Assembly: GCA_020720625.1 (NCBI GenBank)
Contig: DYOH01000034.1
Location: forward strand, 1-35,327
Length of the DNA stretch: 35,327 nucleotides
DNA from: Acetofilamentum sp.
Lineage (GTDB): Bacteria; Bacteroidota; Bacteroidia; Bacteroidales; DYOH01
Direction of reading: 5' to 3'
The translations under genes were made by a program, and so were the position numbers. This document shows, piece after piece, positions 1 to 30,697 of this stretch. The notes under the pieces were generated by a model, which searched no databases, was not told the DNA's origin, and worked only from the letters and a program-made list of their open reading frames with translations. Each line of letters opens with the position of its first letter. The stretch's first letter is position 1.

Positions 1-255
1 TCGCTATACTCTATCAACATTACGATAGACGCAAAAATGGGCGTGAACTTCCGTTGCAAAACTAAAACAGGCAATTTAGAATACTACCAGGTTGCCTGGC
101 TATTATCGAATGAAAACACTTTAGAGAGAGAATTTGGTGCTTTAGAAAAAATAGACGACAATTTTCCAAAATTTTTGCTTACAGCAGACTCATTTACCCA
201 AAGCACAAATGGGATACACCATGTAAATGTATTTAATTGGTTACTTTATTCATAA
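1..255 (+). CDS. AAA-ATPase/DUF4143-type protein, C-terminal fragment (5' end outside window)
   Basis: The frame is open from the first base of the window to a stop at 253-255, so only the last 84 or so codons are visible. Features recalling the C-terminal domain of the AAA-ATPase plus DUF4143 family are the QVAWLL strand, the ENTLEREF helix, a PKFLLT strand, and the closing pattern NGI-HHVNVFNWLL. In this family the C-terminal domain resembles a PD-(D/E)xK nuclease fold and usually has an E-V-D-F motif. Here the corresponding place reads GVNF, so the acidic residue is replaced. The first ATG (37) is internal, not a likely start. The gene may be intact upstream or already a remnant, and the cellular role of such proteins is poorly defined. 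The family call is by recognition of the motif pattern only. Confidence 0.6.
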   Translation, partial: SLYSINITIDAKMGVNFRCKTKTGNLEYYQVAWLLSNENTLEREFGALEKIDDNFPKFLLTADSFTQSTNGIHHVNVFNWLLYS

Positions 256-362: not shown

Positions 363-396
363 AAAAAAAAAACTGCTCTATAAAAATAGAAGCAGG
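363..396 (-). terminator. Intrinsic terminator downstream of the NAD(P)-binding gene
   Basis: Read on the minus strand, CTGCTTCTAT and ATAGAGCAG pair with one bulge around a short T loop and run directly into a ten-base T tract. It lies about 150 bases after the stop of the gene at 547-1173. It resembles the terminator at 1355-1378 (shared CTGC/GCAG stem base) and lies next to the decayed DUF3467 tail, so it was probably copied with it. Confidence 0.75.
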
Positions 397-411
397 CTAA
401 ATTTATTCTAT

Positions 412-516
412 TTAAAATATTATAGCTTGTGCTGCTCCTAAACCAGAAACTAAAAGATTAATTATGGGCGATTTAGTAGAATTTCGCTTACTAAATTCAT
501 TCTCGCCGAAACAAAT
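412..516 (-). pseudogene. Decayed C-terminal fragment of a DUF3467 gene
   Basis: A minus-strand reading frame here contains the residue pattern FGEN, then SPII, then GLGAAQA near a stop at 412-414. The intact DUF3467 protein at 1399-1713 ends with LGEN, SPII and GGGTAQA in the same order and at nearly the same spacing (roughly 30 residues). The nucleotide similarity continues past the stop into the following terminator. The frame is blocked by a stop a little upstream of the similar part and has no start codon, so this is a truncated relic and not a gene. It lies just downstream of the oxidoreductase gene at 547-1173, in the same orientation. It most likely arose by duplication of the end of the RNA polymerase operon. 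Confidence 0.65.
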
Positions 517-546
517 TATATCAACAAAAAATCGAAATATTTTCCT

Positions 547-1173
547 TTATTTTTTTGATATTGATGTAATTAAATTTGCTTTCATCTCTAAATTTCTGAT
601 GATATAATGCGCCACATCGGCTCTGGTTATTTGTCCGGATGGCAGTTTTCCTTGCGAAATTGATGTATAGCTTCCCGTAGCCGGCAAATTGGTTAAACCC
701 GCTGGGCGAACTATTGTGTATGAAAATCCGCTAGATATTACTAAACTTTCTTGCCTCTCGTGGTCTTTTATTACATTGCGCAAAATAAGCAGCATAGATA
801 TTCGCAGCGCAAAAGGTAATTGCTTTTTGCTATTGCCAACGCCCACAGTGCTTATCACCCAAATTCTTGCTGATTTTCCCGATTGTTTCAATGCCGAAAT
901 TACAGTTTTTGTGCCTTCGGAACGCAAGGTGGTTTTTCCGAGCGAATTATTGCCCAGCGCAATAATAATGTGATCGAAAGCTTGGGTTTCAAACACGGCC
1001 TTAAATGTTTCAATTTTAGACACATCGGCCTGTACAATATTCAATTGTGCATTGCTAATGCTAATTTTTGAAGGATTGCGCACCGCAGCAGTAACTGTAT
1101 ATTTTTCAGCCAAAGCTTGTTTCATTATTTCCGTGCCGGTTTTACCGCTTGCTCCAACTAGTAAAATATGCAT
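547..1173 (-). CDS. NAD(P)-binding oxidoreductase-like protein (atypical SDR, NmrA/BVR-B-like)
   Basis: A 208-residue protein with a Rossmann N-terminus. Strand HILLVGAS is followed by the dinucleotide loop G-A-S-G-K-T-G at residues 7-13, an AAVRNPSK segment at the end of strand 2 (the arginine suggests NADP preference), and an IIALGNNS strand near residue 70-77. The middle part carries WVISTVGVG and the end has a YTIVRPAGLT segment, both typical of the NAD(P)H-binding family that includes biliverdin reductase B and NmrA-like proteins. Length fits the family (about 200-215). The substrate cannot be told from the sequence. It is transcribed alone: the polymerase operon terminator lies upstream at 1355-1378 and its own terminator at 363-396. 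The ATG start immediately precedes the Rossmann strand, as is usual. Confidence 0.85.
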   Translation of the reverse strand: MHILLVGASGKTGTEIMKQALAEKYTVTAAVRNPSKISISNAQLNIVQADVSKIETFKAVFETQAFDHIIIALGNNSLGKTTLRSEGTKTVISALKQSGKSARIWVISTVGVGNSKKQLPFALRISMLLILRNVIKDHERQESLVISSGFSYTIVRPAGLTNLPATGSYTSISQGKLPSGQITRADVAHYIIRNLEMKANLITSISKK

Positions 1174-1268
1174 GTCGTAAATATTTGAAGTATAGGTAAT
1201 AAATGTTGATAAAAAAGGACGCCGTTGTTCGTTATCTCAAAGTAGCATTATTCATAAAAATTTTAATA

Positions 1269-1276
1269 CAAAATTA
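1269..1276 (-). promoter_or_regulatory. Possible -7 element of the NAD(P)-binding gene
   Basis: On the minus strand this reads TAATTTTG, an exact match to the Bacteroidota -7 consensus TAnnTTTG. No convincing TTG element lies 19-20 bases upstream. It would give a leader of about 90 bases before the ATG at 1173, and it sits between the operon terminator and the gene. Half-matched, so only moderately supported. Confidence 0.35.
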
Positions 1277-1354
1277 CACCTGTGAATGCTAATCGGTCTC
1301 ATTTACATCTACACTAGTCAAAGCGGAATATATACCAAACTATACCATAACAAA

Positions 1355-1378
1355 AACCTGCCCTTTTGAGAGCAGGTT
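1355..1378 (-). terminator. Intrinsic terminator of the RNA polymerase operon
   Basis: On the minus strand AACCTGC and GCAGGTT form a perfect 7-bp stem around a 10-base loop, followed by TTTTG. It lies 20 bases after the DUF3467 stop and closes the tRNA-tuf-secE-nusG-rpl-rpoBC transcription unit. Confidence 0.8.
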
Positions 1379-1398
1379 TAATATTATAAATTCATATT

Positions 1399-1713
1399 TT
1401 AAGCTTGCGCTGTTCCACCACCAAAATTGATAGGTGGAATAATGGGCGAATTATTGGTATTTATTTTACCATTCGCATCTTCGAACCGCAAAATATTCTC
1501 TCCTAATGCCTTATGAAATCTTTTGGCATTCTCCGGATTCATAATGATTCGGGAAACTACCTGGGCTTTAGGCAAGCCCGGCATGATCCTAACAAAATCC
1601 ATTACAAATTCGGAGCTGGAATGAGTAATTACCACTAAATTAGCGTAATTACCCTGTCCTATTTCCTCTTTTAGCTCAATATTTATTTGCTGTGAAACAT
1701 TCTTTTCTTCCAT
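1399..1713 (-). CDS. DUF3467 family protein at the end of the rpoBC operon
   Basis: A 104-residue soluble protein with no signal peptide or membrane segment. The pattern fits DUF3467: a strand with THSSSEFVMDF, then IMPGLPKAQVVSRIIMNPENAKRF followed by a helix ending LGEN, and a proline/glycine-rich tail. It begins 24 bases after the rpoC stop and ends just before the operon terminator, so it is co-transcribed with RNA polymerase subunits. That position is common in Bacteroidota. The molecular function is unknown. The genomic position suggests, but does not prove, a link with transcription. A decayed copy of its C-terminal end lies at 412-516. Confidence 0.88.
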   Translation of the reverse strand: MEEKNVSQQINIELKEEIGQGNYANLVVITHSSSEFVMDFVRIMPGLPKAQVVSRIIMNPENAKRFHKALGENILRFEDANGKINTNNSPIIPPINFGGGTAQA

Positions 1714-1737: not shown

Positions 1738-4700
1738 TTAATAATCTTTTTTATGTAATGATTCGAATTCTTCCATTGATCCTACAATAATATCGGTGTA
1801 TTCGCGCAGACCTGTACCTGCGGGAATCAAGTGTCCAACAATAACGTTCTCTTTTAATCCTTCCAAACCATCAATCTTTCCACTAATGGCAGCTTCGTTA
1901 AGTACTTTGGTCGTTTCCTGGAACGAGGCAGCCGAGAAGACGCTCTTTGTTTGCAAAGCTGAACGCGTAATACCCTGTAGTACAGGACTTGATGTTGCTG
2001 GTGCGGCATCTCTTGCCTCCACAAGTTTAAGATCTCGCCTACGTAATTGCGAATTAACCTCGCGCAGTTTTCTTGGACTTACTATTTGTCCGGCACGCAA
2101 CTCAACTGAATCTCCGGCATCGAGAACTACTTTCATGCCATAGATACGGTCGTTTTCCTCCATAAAATCCCATTTATCAACCAACTGTTTTTCAAGGAAT
2201 AAAGTATCGCCAGGCTCAATTATTTGCACTTTACGCATCATTTGCCGAACTATTACTTCAAAGTGTTTATCGTTAATTTTCACACCCTGTAAGCGATATA
2301 CCTCTTGAACCTCGTTTACAATATATTCCTGAACCTTTGTTGGTCCCTGAATAGAAAGTATATCAGAAGGTGTAATTGCCCCATCAGAAAGCGGAGTACC
2401 AGCTCTAACAAAATCGTTTTCTTGCACAAGAATTTGCTTTCCTAGTGGAACTAAATATCGTTTTTCGTCTCCATTTTTGGAAGTTACAATAATCTCTCTG
2501 TTACCTCTTTTTATTTTGGCTCCAAAACGCACTTCTCCATCAATTTCTGAAACTACTGCAGGATTCGAAGGATTTCTGGCTTCGAAAAGCTCAGTAACAC
2601 GTGGCAAACCACCGGTGATATCACCAACTTTACCAATTGCCCGCGGAATTTTTGCCAAAACATCCCCACCTTTTACGTTTATACCATCATCTACAGAGAT
2701 ATGCGCTCCTACAGGCAGATTATATGTTCTTATTACTTCGTTATTGCTTTCGTCAATAATTAAAATTTCAGGATTCTTGGTTTTATCTCTCGTTTCGATA
2801 ATTACTTTCTCGCGATAGCCTGTTTGCTCATCTTTTTCTTCCCTAAAGGTTATACCACCAATTAGATTGCGATATTCAATTTTACCTTTATACTCTGTAA
2901 GTATTAATGCATTAAACGGATCCCAATCACAAACAAGCGTTCCTTTTTCAGCTTTGGTTCCATTTTTCACATAGAGTTTTGAACCATAAGGAATATTTTG
3001 CGAAGCCAATACAATTCCGGTTTTTTCATCAACAAGTTTGTATTCGCCCATACGACCCACCACAACTTCGATAGATGTTTGAGTAACTTCATCCCTGGCT
3101 TCAACCGAACGGGTTTCCTCAAACTGAACAATCCCATTGTATTTGGTTGTAATATTAGATTCGGCAGCAATATTAGAAGCAGTACCACCCACGTGGAAAG
3201 TGCGCAATGTGAGCTGAGTTCCCGGCTCACCGATTGACTGTGCGGCTATAACACCAACAGCTTCACCTTTTTGAACCATTCTTCCGGTTGCAAGGTTACG
3301 TCCATAGCATTTAGCACATACGCCTTTATGAGCTTCACAAGTTAATACCGATCGAATTTCGATTTGTTCAATAGGAGAATCTTCGATTACCTGAGCAACT
3401 TCTTCAGTAATTTCACCTCCCGAAGCAACAATTAATTCTCCGGTATTGGGATGAAATACATCGTGCACGGTAGTTCTACCCAATATTCTTTCGAATAAGG
3501 TTTCGTGAACCTCGTCGTTCTTTTTTAACTCAGTTGCTAAAATACCGCGCAATGTTCCGCAATCCGGTTCGTTAATGATAACGTCCTGTGAAACATCAAC
3601 CAAGCGTCGGGTTAAATATCCTGCATCAGCAGTCTTTAAAGCTGTATCGGCCAAACCTTTACGAGCTCCGTGAGTAGAAATAAAATACTCAAGAACCGAA
3701 AGCCCCTCTTTAAAGTTTGATAGAATAGGGTTCTCGATAATCTCGGCACTAGAAGCACCTGATTTTTGAGGTTTTGCCATCAAACCGCGCATTCCGGATA
3801 GCTGACGAATCTGCTCTTTAGATCCCCTGGCGCCTGAATCCAACATCATGTATACAGAGTTAAATCCCTGGCGATCGGTAGAAAGCTGGTTCATTAATGT
3901 AGCTGTAAGACGCGCGTTTGTATGTGTCCAGATATCAATGATCTGATTATATCTTTCGTTATTGGTAATTACCCCCATCTCATAGTTCATGGTTACCTCT
4001 TCTACTTTCTTGTAACCTTCATCTACCAGTGTCTTTTTCTCTGCAGGAATAATAACATCGTCGAGATTAAACGACAAACCACCTTTAAAGGCCATTTGAT
4101 AACCTAAATTCTTAATATCATCAAGAAAATCTGCAGTTCTTGCCGTTCCACAAAGTTTAAGAATATTTCCAATAATATCTCTCAAAGATTTCTTTGTAAG
4201 AATCTGATTGATAAAACCTGCTTCGTCGGGAACTAATTCGTTGAATATAATTCGACCAACGGTTGTCTCAATGAGCTGATGCTTTTCGGATTTTTTTAAT
4301 CCCTTGTTTATTCTAACTTTTACAACTGCATGCAAATCAACTTTTTTCTCATTATAAGCAATAATTGCCTCTTCCGATGAATAAAAAATCAAACCTTCGC
4401 CTTTTACTTTATAATCACCCTGAGAATATCTTGGTTTTGTAATGTAATACAATCCAAGTACCATGTCTTGCGATGGAACAGTAATAGGTGCACCGTTGGC
4501 GGGATTTAGAATATTATGCGATGCAAGCATTAATAGTTGTGCCTCCAAAATAGCTGCATTTCCAAGTGGTAAATGAACTGCCATCTGGTCGCCATCAAAG
4601 TCGGCATTGAAAGCGGTACATACCAAAGGGTGTAATTGTATAGCTTTCCCTTCAATTAATTTTGGTTGAAATGCCTGAATACCAAGCCTATGCAGAGTTG

Positions 4701-6018
4701 GTGCACGGTTGAGTAATACAGGATGTCCTTTCAAAATATTTTCGAGAATATCCCAAATAACGGGGTCTCTTCTGTCTACAATTTTTTTTGCCGATTTCAC
4801 AGTTTTTACAATACCGCGCTCGTTTAATTTGCGAATAATAAACGGTTTGTATAACTCAGCAGCCATATCTTTGGGCAAACCGCATTCGTGCAGCTTCAAT
4901 TCCGGGCCTACAACAATTACAGAACGTGCAGAATAGTCGACCCTCTTACCCAATAGATTTTGTCTAAAACGGCCTTGCTTTCCTTTTAAGCTATCACTTA
5001 AGGATTTTAACGCTCTGTTTGATTCCGATTTTACAGCACTTGCCTTTCTAGAGTTATCAAACAAGGAATCTACAGCCTCCTGGAGCATCCTTTTTTCGTT
5101 TCTTAAGATAACTTCCGGAGCACGTATCTCCATTAATCTTTTTAAGCGATTATTTCTGATAATAACCCTTCTATACAAATCGTTAAGATCGGAAGTGGCA
5201 AATCTACCACCATCTAATGGAACTAATGGACGCAAATCTGGTGGAATTACCGGAACAACCTTTATTATCATCCACTCGGGCTTATTTAAAACCTTAGAAG
5301 ACTGAAATGCACTAACCACCTGAAGTCTCTTTAACGCTTCTGATTTTCTTTGCTGGGAAGATTCTTTGCTGGCCTTATCTCTCAAAGTGTCGGCAAGTTG
5401 ATCTAATTCAATACGAAGCAGCAAATCAAAAATGGCTTCGGCTCCCATTTTGGCAATAAACTTATTGGGATCAGAATTATCCAGCATTTTATTTTCTTTT
5501 GGCAAAGAATCCATAATGTCGATATATTCCTCTTCCGACAGAAAATCAAGTTGTTTAATTCCTCCATCAGCGGCCTTAATACCAGGCTGAATCACAATAT
5601 ATTTTTCGTAATAGATTATCTGATCAAGTTTTTTGGTAGGTAATCCAAGAAGGTATCCAATTTTATTGGGCAATGACCTGAAATACCAGATATGGGCCAC
5701 CGGAACTACAAGTTCTATGTGCCCCATTCTTTCGCGTCTTACCTTTTTCTCTGTAACCTCTACACCACATCTATCGCAAACAATGCCTTTATATCTAATT
5801 CTCTTATACTTTCCGCAATGGCATTCATAATCTTTAACCGGACCAAAAATACGTTCGCAGAATAAACCATCTCTTTCTGGCTTATAGGTTCTGTAGTTAA
5901 TGGTTTCGGGTTTTAATACCTCGCCATGAGAACGTTCTAATATTTCCTCAGGACTAGATAGACTGATAGAAATCTTAGTAAAATCAGAGTTTGTTTTTAT
6001 ATCTCTTCTGTAAGCCAT
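1738..6018 (-). CDS. rpoC: DNA-directed RNA polymerase subunit beta'
   Basis: A 1426-residue beta' subunit, the usual length in Bacteroidota. It forms the clamp and most of the active site of RNA polymerase. The N-terminal zinc site is C66, C68, C81 and C84. The absolutely conserved catalytic loop NADFDGD lies at residues 471-477, with the three aspartates (473, 475, 477) that hold the catalytic magnesium. The bridge-helix region follows near 780-810, and the second zinc site is C820, C894, C901 and C904. All hallmark residues are intact. It follows rpoB after 54 bases and precedes the DUF3467 gene by 24 bases. The ATG start gives the typical N-terminus MAYRRDIK. No frameshift is seen. Confidence 0.99.
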
Positions 6019-6072: not shown

Positions 6073-9000
6073 TTACGATAGATTAACGCTTAAAGCTAAT
6101 CCGCGCAATTCATGCAGAAGCACATTTAGCGATTCAGGTATTCCGGGCTTTGGCAATGGATCACCCTTAACAATCGCTTCATAGGCCTTAGAACGTCCGA
6201 TGACATCATCAGATTTTACAGTTAATATTTCCTGCAAAATATTGGCAGCACCAAAAGCTTCGAGTGCCCAAACCTCCATTTCACCAAAACGTTGCCCCCC
6301 AAATTGGGCTTTACCGCCCAAAGGTTGCTGTGTTATAAGTGAATACGGTCCTATTGAACGGGCATGCATTTTATCGTCGACCATGTGCCCCAGTTTGAGC
6401 ATATAGATAACCCCAACAGTTGCAGGTTGATCAAACATTTCACCTGTTCCACCATCGTAAAGATATGTTTTTCCGTATTTTGGAACTCCAGCTTTAGTGG
6501 TATAGGCGGTAATTTCATCTAAGGTAGCACCATCGAAAATTGGTGTAGCAAACTTTAGTCCCAATTCCTTACCAGCCCATCCAAGAACTGTTTCGTAAAT
6601 TTGTCCTAAGTTCATACGAGAAGGCACTCCCAGTGGATTTAATACAATGTCTACTGTGGTTCCATCGGCCATAAATGGCATATCCTCGTCGCGAACTATT
6701 CTTGCTACTATCCCTTTGTTTCCATGTCGGCCGGCCATTTTATCGCCCACTTTAACTTTTCGTTTTTTGGCAATATATACTTTGGCTAACTTTATGATAC
6801 CAATAGGTAGCTCATCTCCAATAGTTACATTATATTTCTCGCGTTGATGTTTTGCCTGAAGTTCTTTCAACTTCATCTCATAATTATGAATCAAGCGCTC
6901 AATCATATCATTCTTTGACTTGTCTGTAGTCCATTTGGTTGGATTTACACTCAAGAAGTCTATTTCCTGAAGTATTTTTTGTGTAAATTTTACCCCTTTG
7001 GCGACAATCTCTGTATTGAAATAATCTTTTACCCCTTGAGAAGTTTTTCCGCTTAATACTACAAATAATTTATCCAATAAACGAGCAGTCAATTCTTCAC
7101 GTTTACGTTCGTAATCTTTGTCGAGTTTAGCGATAATCGGTTTTTCAGAATTTTTTAATTTTCTTTCCTTATTTGCCCTAGAGAATAGTTTTTTATCAAT
7201 TACTACCCCCGACAACGATGGAGATGCTTTTAAGGATGCATCCTTAACATCGCCAGCTTTATCTCCGAAAATGGCTCTCAAAAGTTTCTCTTCCGGAGTA
7301 GGATCAGATTCTCCTTTGGGAGTAATTTTTCCAATTAGAATATCGCCAGGTTTCACATTAGCGCCAATTCTAATCAATCCATTCTCATCCAAATTTTTTG
7401 TAGCTTCCTCGCTAACATTTGGAATATCTGAAGTTAATTCTTCCTGTCCGCGCTTTGTATCGCGAACTTCCAATATATGTTCATCAATATGAATTGATGT
7501 AAAAACATCATTTCGAACAACCTTCTCAGAAATAACAATGGCATCTTCAAAATTGTACCCTTTCCATGGCATAAACGCCACTTTTAGGTTTCTACCTAAA
7601 GCTAATTCTCCGCTCTCAGTTGCATATCCATCGGTTAATATTTCGCCTGACTTAACTTTCTGGCCCTTTCGTACAATTGGCTTCAAGTTAATGCAAGTAC
7701 TCTGGTTTGTTTTCTGAAATTTTGGAATGTTGTAACGTTTTACATCATCATCAAAACTAACAAACTTTTCGTCTTCGGTATATGAATACCTCACTACAAT
7801 TTCATTACCATCAACATACTCAATAACTCCATCGTGCTCTGCAGTAACCTGTATCCGGCTATCCCTGGCAACAAAAGCTTCTATTCCCGTTCCAACAATC
7901 GGAGACTCTGGATTCAATAATGGCACCGCCTGGCGCATCATGTTGGACCCCATCAGGGCACGGTTGGCATCATCATGCTCTAAAAACGGTATTAAAGATG
8001 CCGCAATAGAGGCAATCTGATTAGGAGCCACGTCCATTAAATCTATCTCATCGGGAGTTGCTAACGGAAAATCACCATCTAATCGTGCTTTGATTTTGCT
8101 ATTAACAAATTTTCCTTCCTCATCAATAATGGCATTAGCCTGAGCAATTGTGCGCTTTTCTTCTTCTTCTGCGCTCAAATATAATACGCCATCATTTGTT
8201 AAATCAACCTGACCCGTTTTAACGATCCTGTATGGAGTTTCAATAAAGCCGAGGTGATTAATTTTGGCATAAACACAAAGGGATGAGATAAGTCCAATAT
8301 TTGGCCCTTCCGGTGTTTCAATAGGACATAATCTGCCGTAGTGCGTAAAATGCACGTCGCGGACTTCGAAACCTGCTCTCTCCCTGGATAGTCCACCAGG
8401 TCCGAGTGCAGAAAGTCTTCTTTTATGAGTCATTTCAGCTAATGGATTTGTTTGATCCATAAACTGTGATAACTGGTTGGTTCCAAAAAAAGAGTTGATA
8501 ACTGAAGAAAGAGTTTTCGAATTAATTAAGTCAATAGGCGTAAAAACCTCGTTGTCGCGAACATTCATTCTCTCCCTAATTGTTCTGGCCATCCTTGCAA
8601 GCCCCACGCCAAACTGGTTTGCAAGTTGCTCGCCAACCGTTCTAACGCGCCTGTTGCTTAAATGATCGATATCATCAACATCAGTTTTAGAGTTAATTAA
8701 CTGAATAAGATACTTAATAATCTCAATAATATCTTGATTTGTAAGAATTTTTACATCAATTGGAGTCTCAAGCCCGAGCTTGGTATTCATCCTATATCTG
8801 CCAACCTCACCTAAGTCGTATCGTTTATCCGAGAAAAACAATTTATCTATAACGTCGCGAGCCGTAGCTTCATCTGGTGGCTCAGAGTTACGTAATTGTC
8901 TGTAAATGTGCAATACAGCTTCTTTTTCTGAATTGCATGGGTCTTTTTGTAAAGTATTGTAAATAATCGCATAATCAGAAGAACTGAAGTCTTCGCGGTG

Positions 9001-9879
9001 CAACAAAATCGTAGGGGCACCCGAATCTACAATTTCGTCAACATGATCTGCTTCTATAACAGTTTCACGGTCGAGAACCACTTCATTTCGTTCAATAGAA
9101 ACCACTTCACCAGTATCTTCATCAACGAAATCTTCTACCCATTTCTTTATAACTCTTGCGGCAAGTTTTCGACCAACAATTTTTTTCAATGCGGTTTTCG
9201 AAACTTTAACCTCTTCTGCAAGATTAAAAATTTCTAAAATATCTTTATCGCTTTCATATCCAATAGCCCTTAACAGCGTTGTAACGGGCAATTTTTTCTT
9301 GCGATCAATATAAGCATACATGACATTGGCAATGTCGGTGGCAAATTCAATCCACGACCCTTTGAAAGGTATAATTCGTGCTGAATATAATTTAGTGCCA
9401 TTACTGTGAACACTTTGTCCGAAGAACACTCCGGGACTTCTATGCAGTTGGGAAACAATAACTCTCTCGGCACCGTTAATTACAAATGTACCTTTAGGTG
9501 TCATGTAAGGCACAGTACCTAAATACACATCCTGAATAATTGTTTCAAAATCTTCGTGTTCAGGATCGTTGCAATAAAGCTTTAATTTAGCTTTAAGCGG
9601 AACACTATAGGTTAGGCCTCTTTCGATACATTCGTCGATAGAATATCTAGGAGGATCTACTTGATAATCAAGAAACTCTAATACAAAATTGTTTCTTGTA
9701 TCTGTAATTGGAAAGTTTTCCTGAAAAACTTTAAACAATGCTTCTTTTGTACGTTCTTCGGGAACACTGCCGATTTGAAAAAACTCAGTAAACGACTTTA
9801 TCTGCACTTCCAAAAAGTCAGGGTAATTTAGCTGATTTTTAATGGAAGCAAAACTTATTCTTGGATTATTTTGAGACAT
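6073..9879 (-). CDS. rpoB: DNA-directed RNA polymerase subunit beta
   Basis: A 1268-residue beta subunit that forms the other half of the polymerase cleft. The rifampicin-binding cluster lies near residues 463-497 (starting [13 protein letters not shown]). It keeps the D, H and S residues equivalent to E. coli D516, H526 and S531, so the main resistance positions are wild type. Other signatures are [10 protein letters not shown] near 770 and GRHGNKG near 1048. Length and start ([17 protein letters not shown]) are typical for Bacteroidota. It is separated from rplL by 100 bases that contain an attenuator-like hairpin (9915-9950), and it is followed by rpoC after 54 bases. Confidence 0.99.
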
Positions 9880-13098: not shown

Positions 13099-14286
13099 TT
13101 ATTCAAGAATTTCTGTAACCTGACCTGCACCAACTGTACGGCCACCTTCGCGTATTGCAAAACGTAAACCTGTATTAAGTGCCACTGGATATATCAAATC
13201 TACAATAATTGATACGTTATCACCAGGCATTACCATATCTGTACCTTCAGGAAGGTTAATTTCGCCAGTAATGTCAAGCGTTCTAACATAAAATTGTGGA
13301 CGATATTTGTTATGGAATGGGGTATGACGTCCACCTTCTTCTTTTTTCAACACATAAATTTCAGCTTTGAATTTTTTGTGAGGTTTAATTGAATCGGGTT
13401 TTGCTATAACCATACCACGTTTGATAGCTTCTTTATCGATACCGCGTAGTAATAAACCAACGTTATCTCCAGCTTGACCTTGGTCAAGAATTTTGCGGAA
13501 CATTTCAACACCAGTTACAACTGATTTTAAGTTTTCGGCACCTAAACCAATAATCTGAACAGATTCTCCTGTATTGATTATACCAGTTTCGATACGACCA
13601 GTGGCAACTGTACCACGACCTGTAATTGAAAATACGTCTTCAACAGGCATTAAGAATGGTTTTTCAGTTTCGCGAGGAGGAATTGGAATCCACTCATCAA
13701 CTGCATTCATTAATTCCATAATTTTGTCCATCCATTTTTCTTCACCGTTCAAACCACCTAGTGCAGAACCATGAATTACAGGAGTATTATCACCTTCAAA
13801 TTCATAGAAAGTCAATAAATCGCGAACTTCCATTTCAACAAGTTCAAGAAGTTCAGGATCATCAACCATATCAACTTTATTGATGAAAACAACAATTTTG
13901 GGTACGTTTACCTGACGAGCAAGTAAGATGTGTTCGCGTGTTTGAGGCATAGGACCATCTGTACCAGCAACAACAACAATTGCACCATCCATTTGAGCAG
14001 CACCAGTTACCATGTTTTTTACATAGTCGGCGTGACCAGGACAGTCAACGTGTGCATAGTGGCGTTTTTCTGTTGAATATTCAACGTGAGCGGTATTAAT
14101 GGTAATACCTCTTTCTTTTTCTTCTGGAGCATTGTCGATTGAATCGAAATCTCTTACTTCGCAGAACCCTTTTTTTGCTAAAACTGTAGTAATAGCAGCA
14201 GTTAAAGTAGTTTTACCATGATCTACGTGACCAATGGTACCAATATTAACGTGAGGTTTGTCTCTTGAAAATTTTTCTTTTGCCAT
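13099..14286 (-). CDS. tuf: Elongation factor Tu
   Basis: A 395-residue EF-Tu that delivers aminoacyl-tRNA to the ribosome. The G motifs are intact: GHVDHGKT at residues 19-26, DCPGHADY, and NKVDMVDD. Domains 2 and 3 follow ([13 protein letters not shown]; end [16 protein letters not shown]). I chose the ATG at 14286 ([16 protein letters not shown]), the universal start. A longer open frame reaching 14472 only translates the neighbouring tRNA-Thr and tRNA-Gly genes. The gene lies 50 bases after tRNA-Thr(GGT). Confidence 0.99.
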
Positions 14287-14336
14287 GATTAAACAAATTT
14301 TGATTCGATAAAATTTAAAGTACGCTAAAGTCTTCG

Positions 14337-14408
14337 AGCCAACGATGGGAATTGAACCCATGACCTTTTCCTTACCAAGGAAACGCTCTACCCCTGAGCT
14401 ACGTCGGC
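14337..14408 (-). tRNA. tRNA-Thr (anticodon GGT)
   Basis: A 72-base cloverleaf. Acceptor GCCGACG pairs with CGTTGGC (one G-T wobble), the anticodon arm is TTTCC-TTGGTAA-GGAAA with anticodon GGT, the T arm is ATGGG-TTCAATT-CCCAT, and the discriminator is T. CCA is not encoded. It is the last tRNA before tuf. Confidence 0.97.
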
Positions 14409-14414
14409 AACTTG

Positions 14415-14487
14415 AGCGGGCAACGAGGTTCGAACCCGCGACCTTCAGCTTGGAAGGCTGACGCTCTACCAACTGAGCTATGCCCGC
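14415..14487 (-). tRNA. tRNA-Gly (anticodon TCC)
   Basis: A 73-base cloverleaf. The acceptor GCGGGCA/TGCCCGC is fully paired, the anticodon arm is TCAGC-CTTCCAA-GCTGA with anticodon TCC, the T loop is TTCGAAC, and the discriminator is T. No CCA is encoded. It is 6 bases from tRNA-Thr(GGT), so the cluster is processed from one transcript. Confidence 0.97.
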
Positions 14488-29255: not shown

Positions 29256-29743
29256 CTTATTATTAAAAACTTGTAAATAAAATTTTGTTACGGATAACAT
29301 CTTTGCGCAACTTTTCCTGCTAATTTAAAAATTGTCTGTTCCACTTATTGTATTTTGATTAATTCTATATTTTATGCAAATTGCAAATGTTCTAAGGCAA
29401 TTTATTTCTAATCAAAAAAATGCGCTTAAGCATTCCCTGCTTAACAGACAAAACAAAAGTAATGATTTTTCGGGATTCTTATATTTTTCCGGAATAAGTG
29501 TTTTATAAAAAAATGTACCTAAGCAATACGAAAGCCCAGATTGGGTTGAAAATCTGGTTAAAAAAATGTAGCCTAAAAAATAAGTAGTTATTAATCAGGG
29601 TATTATTGTAGCTGGCAAATTTTTATAATTATTCTAAATTTTAGAAATAACAAAAAAAAACAATAGATATTATTACATTTTTTAAATGATAAAATCTACC
29701 TTAGCACCGGATTTTATCTTAATAAATATAATTCCTTTTGCCT
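29256..29743. other. AT-rich divergent spacer between the permease and corA genes
   Basis: No gene recognised. It contains a 15-base inverted repeat, TTCTAAATTTTAGAA, at 29632-29646. A weak hairpin at 29536-29557 (CCAGATT/AATCTGG) has no T tract after it. The clear 9-bp inverted repeat just before corA is listed separately. No full TAnnTTTG promoter is seen on either strand. Composition is strongly AT-rich. Confidence 0.5.
29688..29718 (+). promoter_or_regulatory. 9-bp inverted repeat in front of the CorA-family gene
   Basis: GATAAAATC (29688-29696) and GATTTTATC (29710-29718) are perfect inverted repeats with a 13-base spacer. The second arm ends 25 bases before the ATG at 29744. It could be an operator or a stem in the mRNA leader that hides the ribosome-binding region. 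It is not a terminator, as no T run follows. Confidence 0.5.
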
Positions 29744-30697
29744 ATGCACGAAACAAAAATTTACTATAAAACTGAAGAGAGCATAATAATAACCAACGAT
29801 TTAGATGTAATAAAAACTAACCGCGATAATATTATCTGGATTGATTTGCTTAATCCGGGCGAACTTATTAAAGATATTATCGAAGATTTTTACGATTTTG
29901 ATTTTAAAACGGATAGGGAGATAGAAGAGATTGAATCAAGTTCGAGATATTCTGAAACGCTCAATTTTATCATCATGAATACCAACTTTGCATCGCTGGA
30001 CAGCGACGACAATTTTGTATCTGATATTGTTTCGATGATGATAAGCAAAGACGTTCTGATAACGCTCAGACAATACGATTATTTTACCTTTGATGAAGCA
30101 GAACGCAAGCTAAAAATTAAACATCGTTTGCCCAAAACAGGTTTCGACGTAATGTCGCTGCTATGGGAAATCAGGATAGATTATGAGGCGGATTTGTTGG
30201 AAAATCTGACCAAAAAGATTAACTATGTTTCGCGTAGGGTTGTAGAAAGAGATTTTGATGAGGAATTGCTTGCAAAAATAAATCAGTTGCAAGAGCATTC
30301 TATGATTGTGCGCGAAAGTATTATGGATAAACAGCGCATTGTAAGTAATATTATTCGAAGCACTCGATTTCCAAGAAGGATTATGGAAAAAATGCGTATT
30401 CTGATAAAAGATATCAACTCCTTGCTCGAATATAACAAATTTAATTTTGAGCGATTAGAATATTTACAGGATACTGTATTGGGTTATATCAATAGCGAAC
30501 AAAATAAAGTGATAAAAATATTTACTGTGCTTTCGGTTATATTTATGCCGCCAACCCTTATTGCCAGTATCTATGGAATGAATTTTAAAATATTGCCAGA
30601 ACTAAATTGGCAACTTGGATATCCTTTCTCTCTTTTACTAATGGTAAGCTCTTCGCTGGTTACGCTTTTATATTTTAAACGCAAAAAATGGCTTTAA
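29744..30697 (+). CDS. CorA-family magnesium/divalent cation channel
   Basis: A 317-residue protein. A long cytoplasmic alpha/beta and helical domain (residues 1-250) has the coiled stalk helices typical of CorA. Two C-terminal membrane spans follow. The signature is YGMNF in ASIYGMNFKILPEL near residue 280, which lines the pore mouth. The end carries basic residues (KRKKW). I chose the ATG at 29744; a TTG at 29738 would add two residues only. The gene has no close partner and overlaps the 3' end of the GGGP synthase gene by 4 bp. Transport of magnesium is the usual role; cobalt or other ions cannot be excluded. Confidence 0.9.
   Translation: MHETKIYYKTEESIIITNDLDVIKTNRDNIIWIDLLNPGELIKDIIEDFYDFDFKTDREIEEIESSSRYSETLNFIIMNTNFASLDSDDNFVSDIVSMMISKDVLITLRQYDYFTFDEAERKLKIKHRLPKTGFDVMSLLWEIRIDYEADLLENLTKKINYVSRRVVERDFDEELLAKINQLQEHSMIVRESIMDKQRIVSNIIRSTRFPRRIMEKMRILIKDINSLLEYNKFNFERLEYLQDTVLGYINSEQNKVIKIFTVLSVIFMPPTLIASIYGMNFKILPELNWQLGYPFSLLLMVSSSLVTLLYFKRKKWL

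Follow-up and report, generated by a model that had tools for sequence, protein, structure and literature searches.

Our analysis indicates that the RNA polymerase operon at this Acetofilamentum locus is followed by a genuine duplicate of its own end, decayed, ordinary in kind and apparently specific to this lineage, and that an oxidoreductase-like gene lies between the intact end and the copy. The degraded copy occupies positions 504-363 of the window, by which we mean the whole stretch of 35,327 nucleotides that was analysed, and its counterpart is the end of the DUF3467 gene at 1482-1402 together with the terminator that follows it. Moreover, duplication and insertion sit at a place that is rearranged within the genus.

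Results

Unless stated otherwise, the features described here lie on the minus strand. Two long ORFs which we take from their sequences to be rpoB (6073..9879, 1268 aa) and rpoC (1738..6018, 1426 aa) precede an intact DUF3467 gene (1399..1713, 104 aa; Pfam PF11950, 7.2e-27), the only DUF3467 gene found in the genome, where a search at E ≤ 10 returns it as the one match. An intact intrinsic terminator (1354..1379, 11 pairs) lies 3' of the rpoB-rpoC-DUF3467 genes and is separated by a spacer (1174..1353), the putative promoter site, from the start of an NAD(P)H-binding oxidoreductase-like gene (547..1173; PF13460, 2.6e-38), which is the only convincing gene between the two copies. A TAnnTTTG match in the spacer, at 1276-1269, is at chance level (as many occur in 105 of 200 shuffles). 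Next comes the relic proper (424..504), corresponding to the last 27 DUF3467 codons and reading ENEFSKRNSTKSPIINLLVSGLGAAQA, with 12 of 27 residues and 52 of 81 bases in agreement with the intact gene, and then the relic terminator (363..395), a bulged hairpin at 373-395 with ten T at 372-363, recognised by folding and by motif count. The frame of the relic (546-424) happens to be in frame with the oxidoreductase, straight after its TAA stop, as chance would give in one case in three.

On the plus strand, positions 1..255 encode the C-terminus of a convergent gene that belongs to a multi-copy family and is truncated at the contig edge. Its relatives are open frames of 381-447 aa at several places in the same genome, two of them with a GQRR(V/A)GKS motif that we assume to be P-loop-like. 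Elsewhere in the window, the mechanical ORF at 13099-14472, presumably elongation factor Tu, begins inside the tRNA genes at 14336-14487, and its true start lies further in.

A preliminary description of this DNA had proposed that 363-516 holds a degraded DUF3467 C-terminus and a hairpin similar to that of the intact gene, and had called for a nucleotide alignment of the two ends; such an alignment confirms the proposal, with similarity above that of any shuffled sequence. We aligned 363-620 with 1340-1760 on the minus strand under a strict and a loose local scoring, each against 2000 dinucleotide shuffles. The strict score is 43 (shuffles: mean 22.5, maximum 37) and the loose score 44 (mean 16.7, maximum 30), so that none of the 2000 shuffles reaches the observed value under either scoring. 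Of 1322 further window segments of equal length, counting both strands, the best scores 29 strict and 22 loose, and a set of 1942 segments drawn from the window and from other loci in its genome peaks at 23, against 44 for the relic. In the strict alignment, which pairs 1462-1371 with 484-391, 68 of 96 columns (90 of them ungapped) are identical, and the copies thus differ in 28 columns, 6 of these being gaps.

The signal is concentrated in the coding part. For the core at 425-484, picked after the alignment had been seen, 44 of 61 columns are identical and 0 of 2000 shuffles reach the score, while the post-stop part with the terminator is weaker when taken alone (matched by 34 of 2000 shuffles). 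The loose alignment extends further on both sides, the added parts being not significant by themselves, and the in-frame protein match runs slightly past the DNA alignment, up to 504. Neither flank shows significant similarity to its counterpart: for the upstream flank 485-546, the extension score is equalled or exceeded in 68 of 300 shuffles and the local score in 1477 of 2000, and for the downstream flank 256-372 the figures are 57 of 200 and 1681 of 2000. An ungapped repeat finder did not return the pair. No further copy of the relic was found in the genome among the 40 of 139 candidates that were scored; the next best match of that search is a 35-base stretch (E 0.004) which matches window positions 545-578, outside the relic. 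The claim that order, orientation and spacing agree between the copies also holds, the distance from a GCT alanine codon to CCTGC, counted by eye, being 25 nt in the intact end and 27 nt in the relic.

At the protein level the relic matches the intact tail without gaps in one open frame, and 1 of 1000 base shuffles reaches its score. It has no stop codon at the place of the DUF3467 stop, and the core alignment contains one gap per side; both fit a loss of coding constraint. Matches are spread evenly over the three codon positions (17, 18 and 17 of 27), as expected in the absence of protein constraint. The relic escapes a profile built from 102 DUF3467 proteins, with locus L118 excluded (score -1.8), and a Pfam search with its 27 residues finds nothing, because only the variable C-terminal tail was copied; for the same reason the label "DUF3467 C-terminus" rests on similarity to the gene of the same genome. 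As a side observation, the DUF3467 matches in L118 (genome G004) and L109 (G043) each contain one TAA, where the match perhaps merely overruns the stop.

The two hairpins are likewise related. A CTGC...GCAG hairpin with a T-run, a motif defined after the copies had been seen, occurs only twice in the 35 kb window, once 3' of each copy, which supports a common origin. The intact hairpin folds at -15.7 kcal/mol (z -5.05) and persists when folded in an 81-base context. The relic hairpin folds at -9.1 kcal/mol, with 5 of 200 shuffles folding as well, and is followed by ten U; in an 86-base context its 5' arm instead base-pairs with relic sequence lying upstream, and this structure (-15.2 kcal/mol) outcompetes the hairpin. 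A consensus terminator scan does not list the relic hairpin at 373-395, presumably because of its bulge, and the same minus-strand scan finds no terminator-like site from the oxidoreductase stop up to there. On balance we favour the relic hairpin as the putative terminator of oxidoreductase transcripts.

To place the relic among other DUF3467 genes we compared it with 103 DUF3467 3' ends: those of the window, of genome G002 and 100 others of the 112 genomes of the order with a match (10 low-ranked ones being left out), and of G001, the congener. The closest end is the window's own, with a strict score of 43 (next 33) and a loose score of 44 (next 24), and the end of the congener's gene reaches 32 and 22. 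The duplication therefore looks lineage-specific. A second DUF3467 3' end was sought in direct orientation 100-3000 bases downstream of 102 loci, window included, with 60 shuffles each (L160 was dropped for its short downstream sequence). None of the 101 other loci shows one within up to 3 kb, the best z among them being 3.3 against 8.7 for the window, though more decayed copies could escape such a search. Downstream sequence amounts to at least 3000 bases in 86 of the 103 loci and at least 1000 in 97.

Nor was the oxidoreductase found downstream of DUF3467 in any of the 102 other loci (up to about 5 kb, sometimes less), which supports an insertion or rearrangement here. The preliminary description had suggested looking in close relatives for a second DUF3467 copy or a missing oxidoreductase; in the loci sampled, which include that of one congener, neither a second DUF3467 end nor the oxidoreductase was found. 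Close relatives of the oxidoreductase are rare. At E ≤ 0.001 there are matches in 28 of 119 genomes of the order, yet apart from the window's own genome only one of them, G019, which belongs to another family, has a close relative (71% identical, locus L003). This relative does not lie beside DUF3467 but next to what we take from its sequence to be a metallophosphatase-like gene, and the next best match, after these two genomes, is 34% identical. At E ≤ 1e-30 the gene is found in 3 of 395 genomes of the class, the window's own included. Its composition is unremarkable (G+C 39.6%; third-position G+C 35% versus 31% in rpoB/rpoC and 33% in the permease described below) and gives no sign of recent transfer.

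Comparison with the congener locates a synteny breakpoint at the same place, as conserved DNA order stops at 1398, adjoining the DUF3467 stop. In the congener (L175, G001:C423) CorA lies 3' of DUF3467, while in the window it occupies 29738-30697, its relative orientation being reversed. CorA is thus 28 kb from DUF3467 here, and the block with the rpo genes is rearranged within the genus. We considered whether DUF3467 and CorA were parted by a simple reciprocal inversion that left a piece of DUF3467 at the second junction, and rejected this: set against the window's DUF3467 end, the relic and the corresponding end in the congener, the sequence before CorA (29301-29745) reaches loose scores of 15-21, where the yardstick is the loose shuffle maximum of 30 from the relic alignment. 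The congener's relative of the permease gene that adjoins CorA in the window lies on another contig and beside another gene, presumably, by its sequence, nicotinate phosphoribosyltransferase. Since the second junction has no counterpart in G001, the history was probably more than one inversion, and window and congener seem to be more than one rearrangement apart.

Discussion

How could such an arrangement arise? We propose that a single duplication in this lineage would have copied about 140 bases, comprising the last 27 or so DUF3467 codons and the intrinsic terminator, and that it probably accompanied a rearrangement where the RNA polymerase operon ends. The oxidoreductase gene would have come to lie between the two copies, in whichever order duplication and insertion took place. 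The outer copy, having no coding role, would decay evenly over codon positions, while its hairpin and T-run would still be recognisable and would most likely serve as a terminator for the oxidoreductase. We regard this account as a whole, a single lineage-specific partial duplication with the oxidoreductase between the copies and the relic decaying, as quite probable; controls back the duplication itself, and we infer the terminator role and the rearrangement as its cause. Of the two origins that the preliminary description had offered, the first, duplication of an operon end, has good support in order, orientation, spacing, closeness to the genome's own gene and even decay; the other, an insertion beside it, finds support as an insertion or rearrangement, the PF13460 gene not having been found downstream in 102 other loci.

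Integrating elements that enter at gene 3' ends supply a fresh end and displace the old one, and one may therefore ask whether what we see as the relic was once the gene's original end, pushed outward by incoming oxidoreductase DNA that brought a new 3' end with it. Such a history would explain why the copied part consists only of the gene 3' end and terminator, why the oxidoreductase sits exactly between the copies, and why its close relatives are rare in the group. However, there is no integrase-like or recombinase gene between the copies (the element may have lost it), and the repeat finder lists no exact direct repeat of at least 10 bases at the junctions or elsewhere in 256-1760 (ungapped seeds of 8). 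Nor does the sequence past either copy resemble the congener's post-terminator sequence (381 and 325 of 500 shuffles do at least as well), so that neither copy can be called the original. We judge this displacement unlikely, and the specific version in which an incoming single-gene cassette captured and regenerated the operon end, the displaced tail now being the cassette's terminator, decidedly unlikely. Horizontal transfer of a foreign piece of a DUF3467 operon end together with the oxidoreductase would suit the patchy distribution of the close oxidoreductase relatives, the nearest of which is in another family of the order. Yet of all the DUF3467 ends sampled the window's own is the nearest to the relic, and the DUF3467 end of G019 (L138) scores only 20 loose and 19 strict against it, which makes this origin very unlikely.

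Two trivial explanations should also be weighed. The window makes up one complete contig of a genome assembled in 143, and the relic lies 363 bases from the contig end, a setting in which an assembly artefact might be suspected; but an assembly duplicate would be nearly identical, and divergence in more than a quarter of the aligned columns renders an artefact highly improbable. As for chance similarity in AT-rich sequence, G+C is indeed 27% in 363-546 and the post-stop part is weak alone, but against the failure of every shuffle by two scorings and of every control segment, in the window and beyond it, to reach the observed score, we give chance hardly any credence.

The duplication reading also compares well with what is known in bacteria, where partial gene duplication followed by pseudogene decay is a familiar phenomenon. 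As in such cases, a fragment of the gene's 3' end lies close to the intact gene in direct orientation and shows similarity beyond chance, lost coding constraint, even decay and its own paralogue as closest relative; unlike them, the two copies are parted by an unrelated gene, and a terminator is part of the fragment. The likeness to integration at gene 3' ends is that the 3' end is repeated on both sides of an extra gene, whereas the repeat here is imperfect and decayed and encloses no integrase-like gene.

The wider idea that intrinsic terminators are spread by short duplications gains no support from the survey, in which the window alone had a second copy. The first ORFs downstream of DUF3467 fall into 82 clusters among 97 loci, window included, so that order is little conserved, but with no control gene as a standard these counts give no evidence of a special hotspot. 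A limited literature search found DUF3467 named in one paper and, on terminator duplication and displaced gene ends, returned nothing to the point.

Thus we view the locus as the scar of a rearrangement at the end of a housekeeping operon. It may also be an example, in a single case rather than as a general route, of how a newly placed gene gains a terminator from a duplicated operon end.
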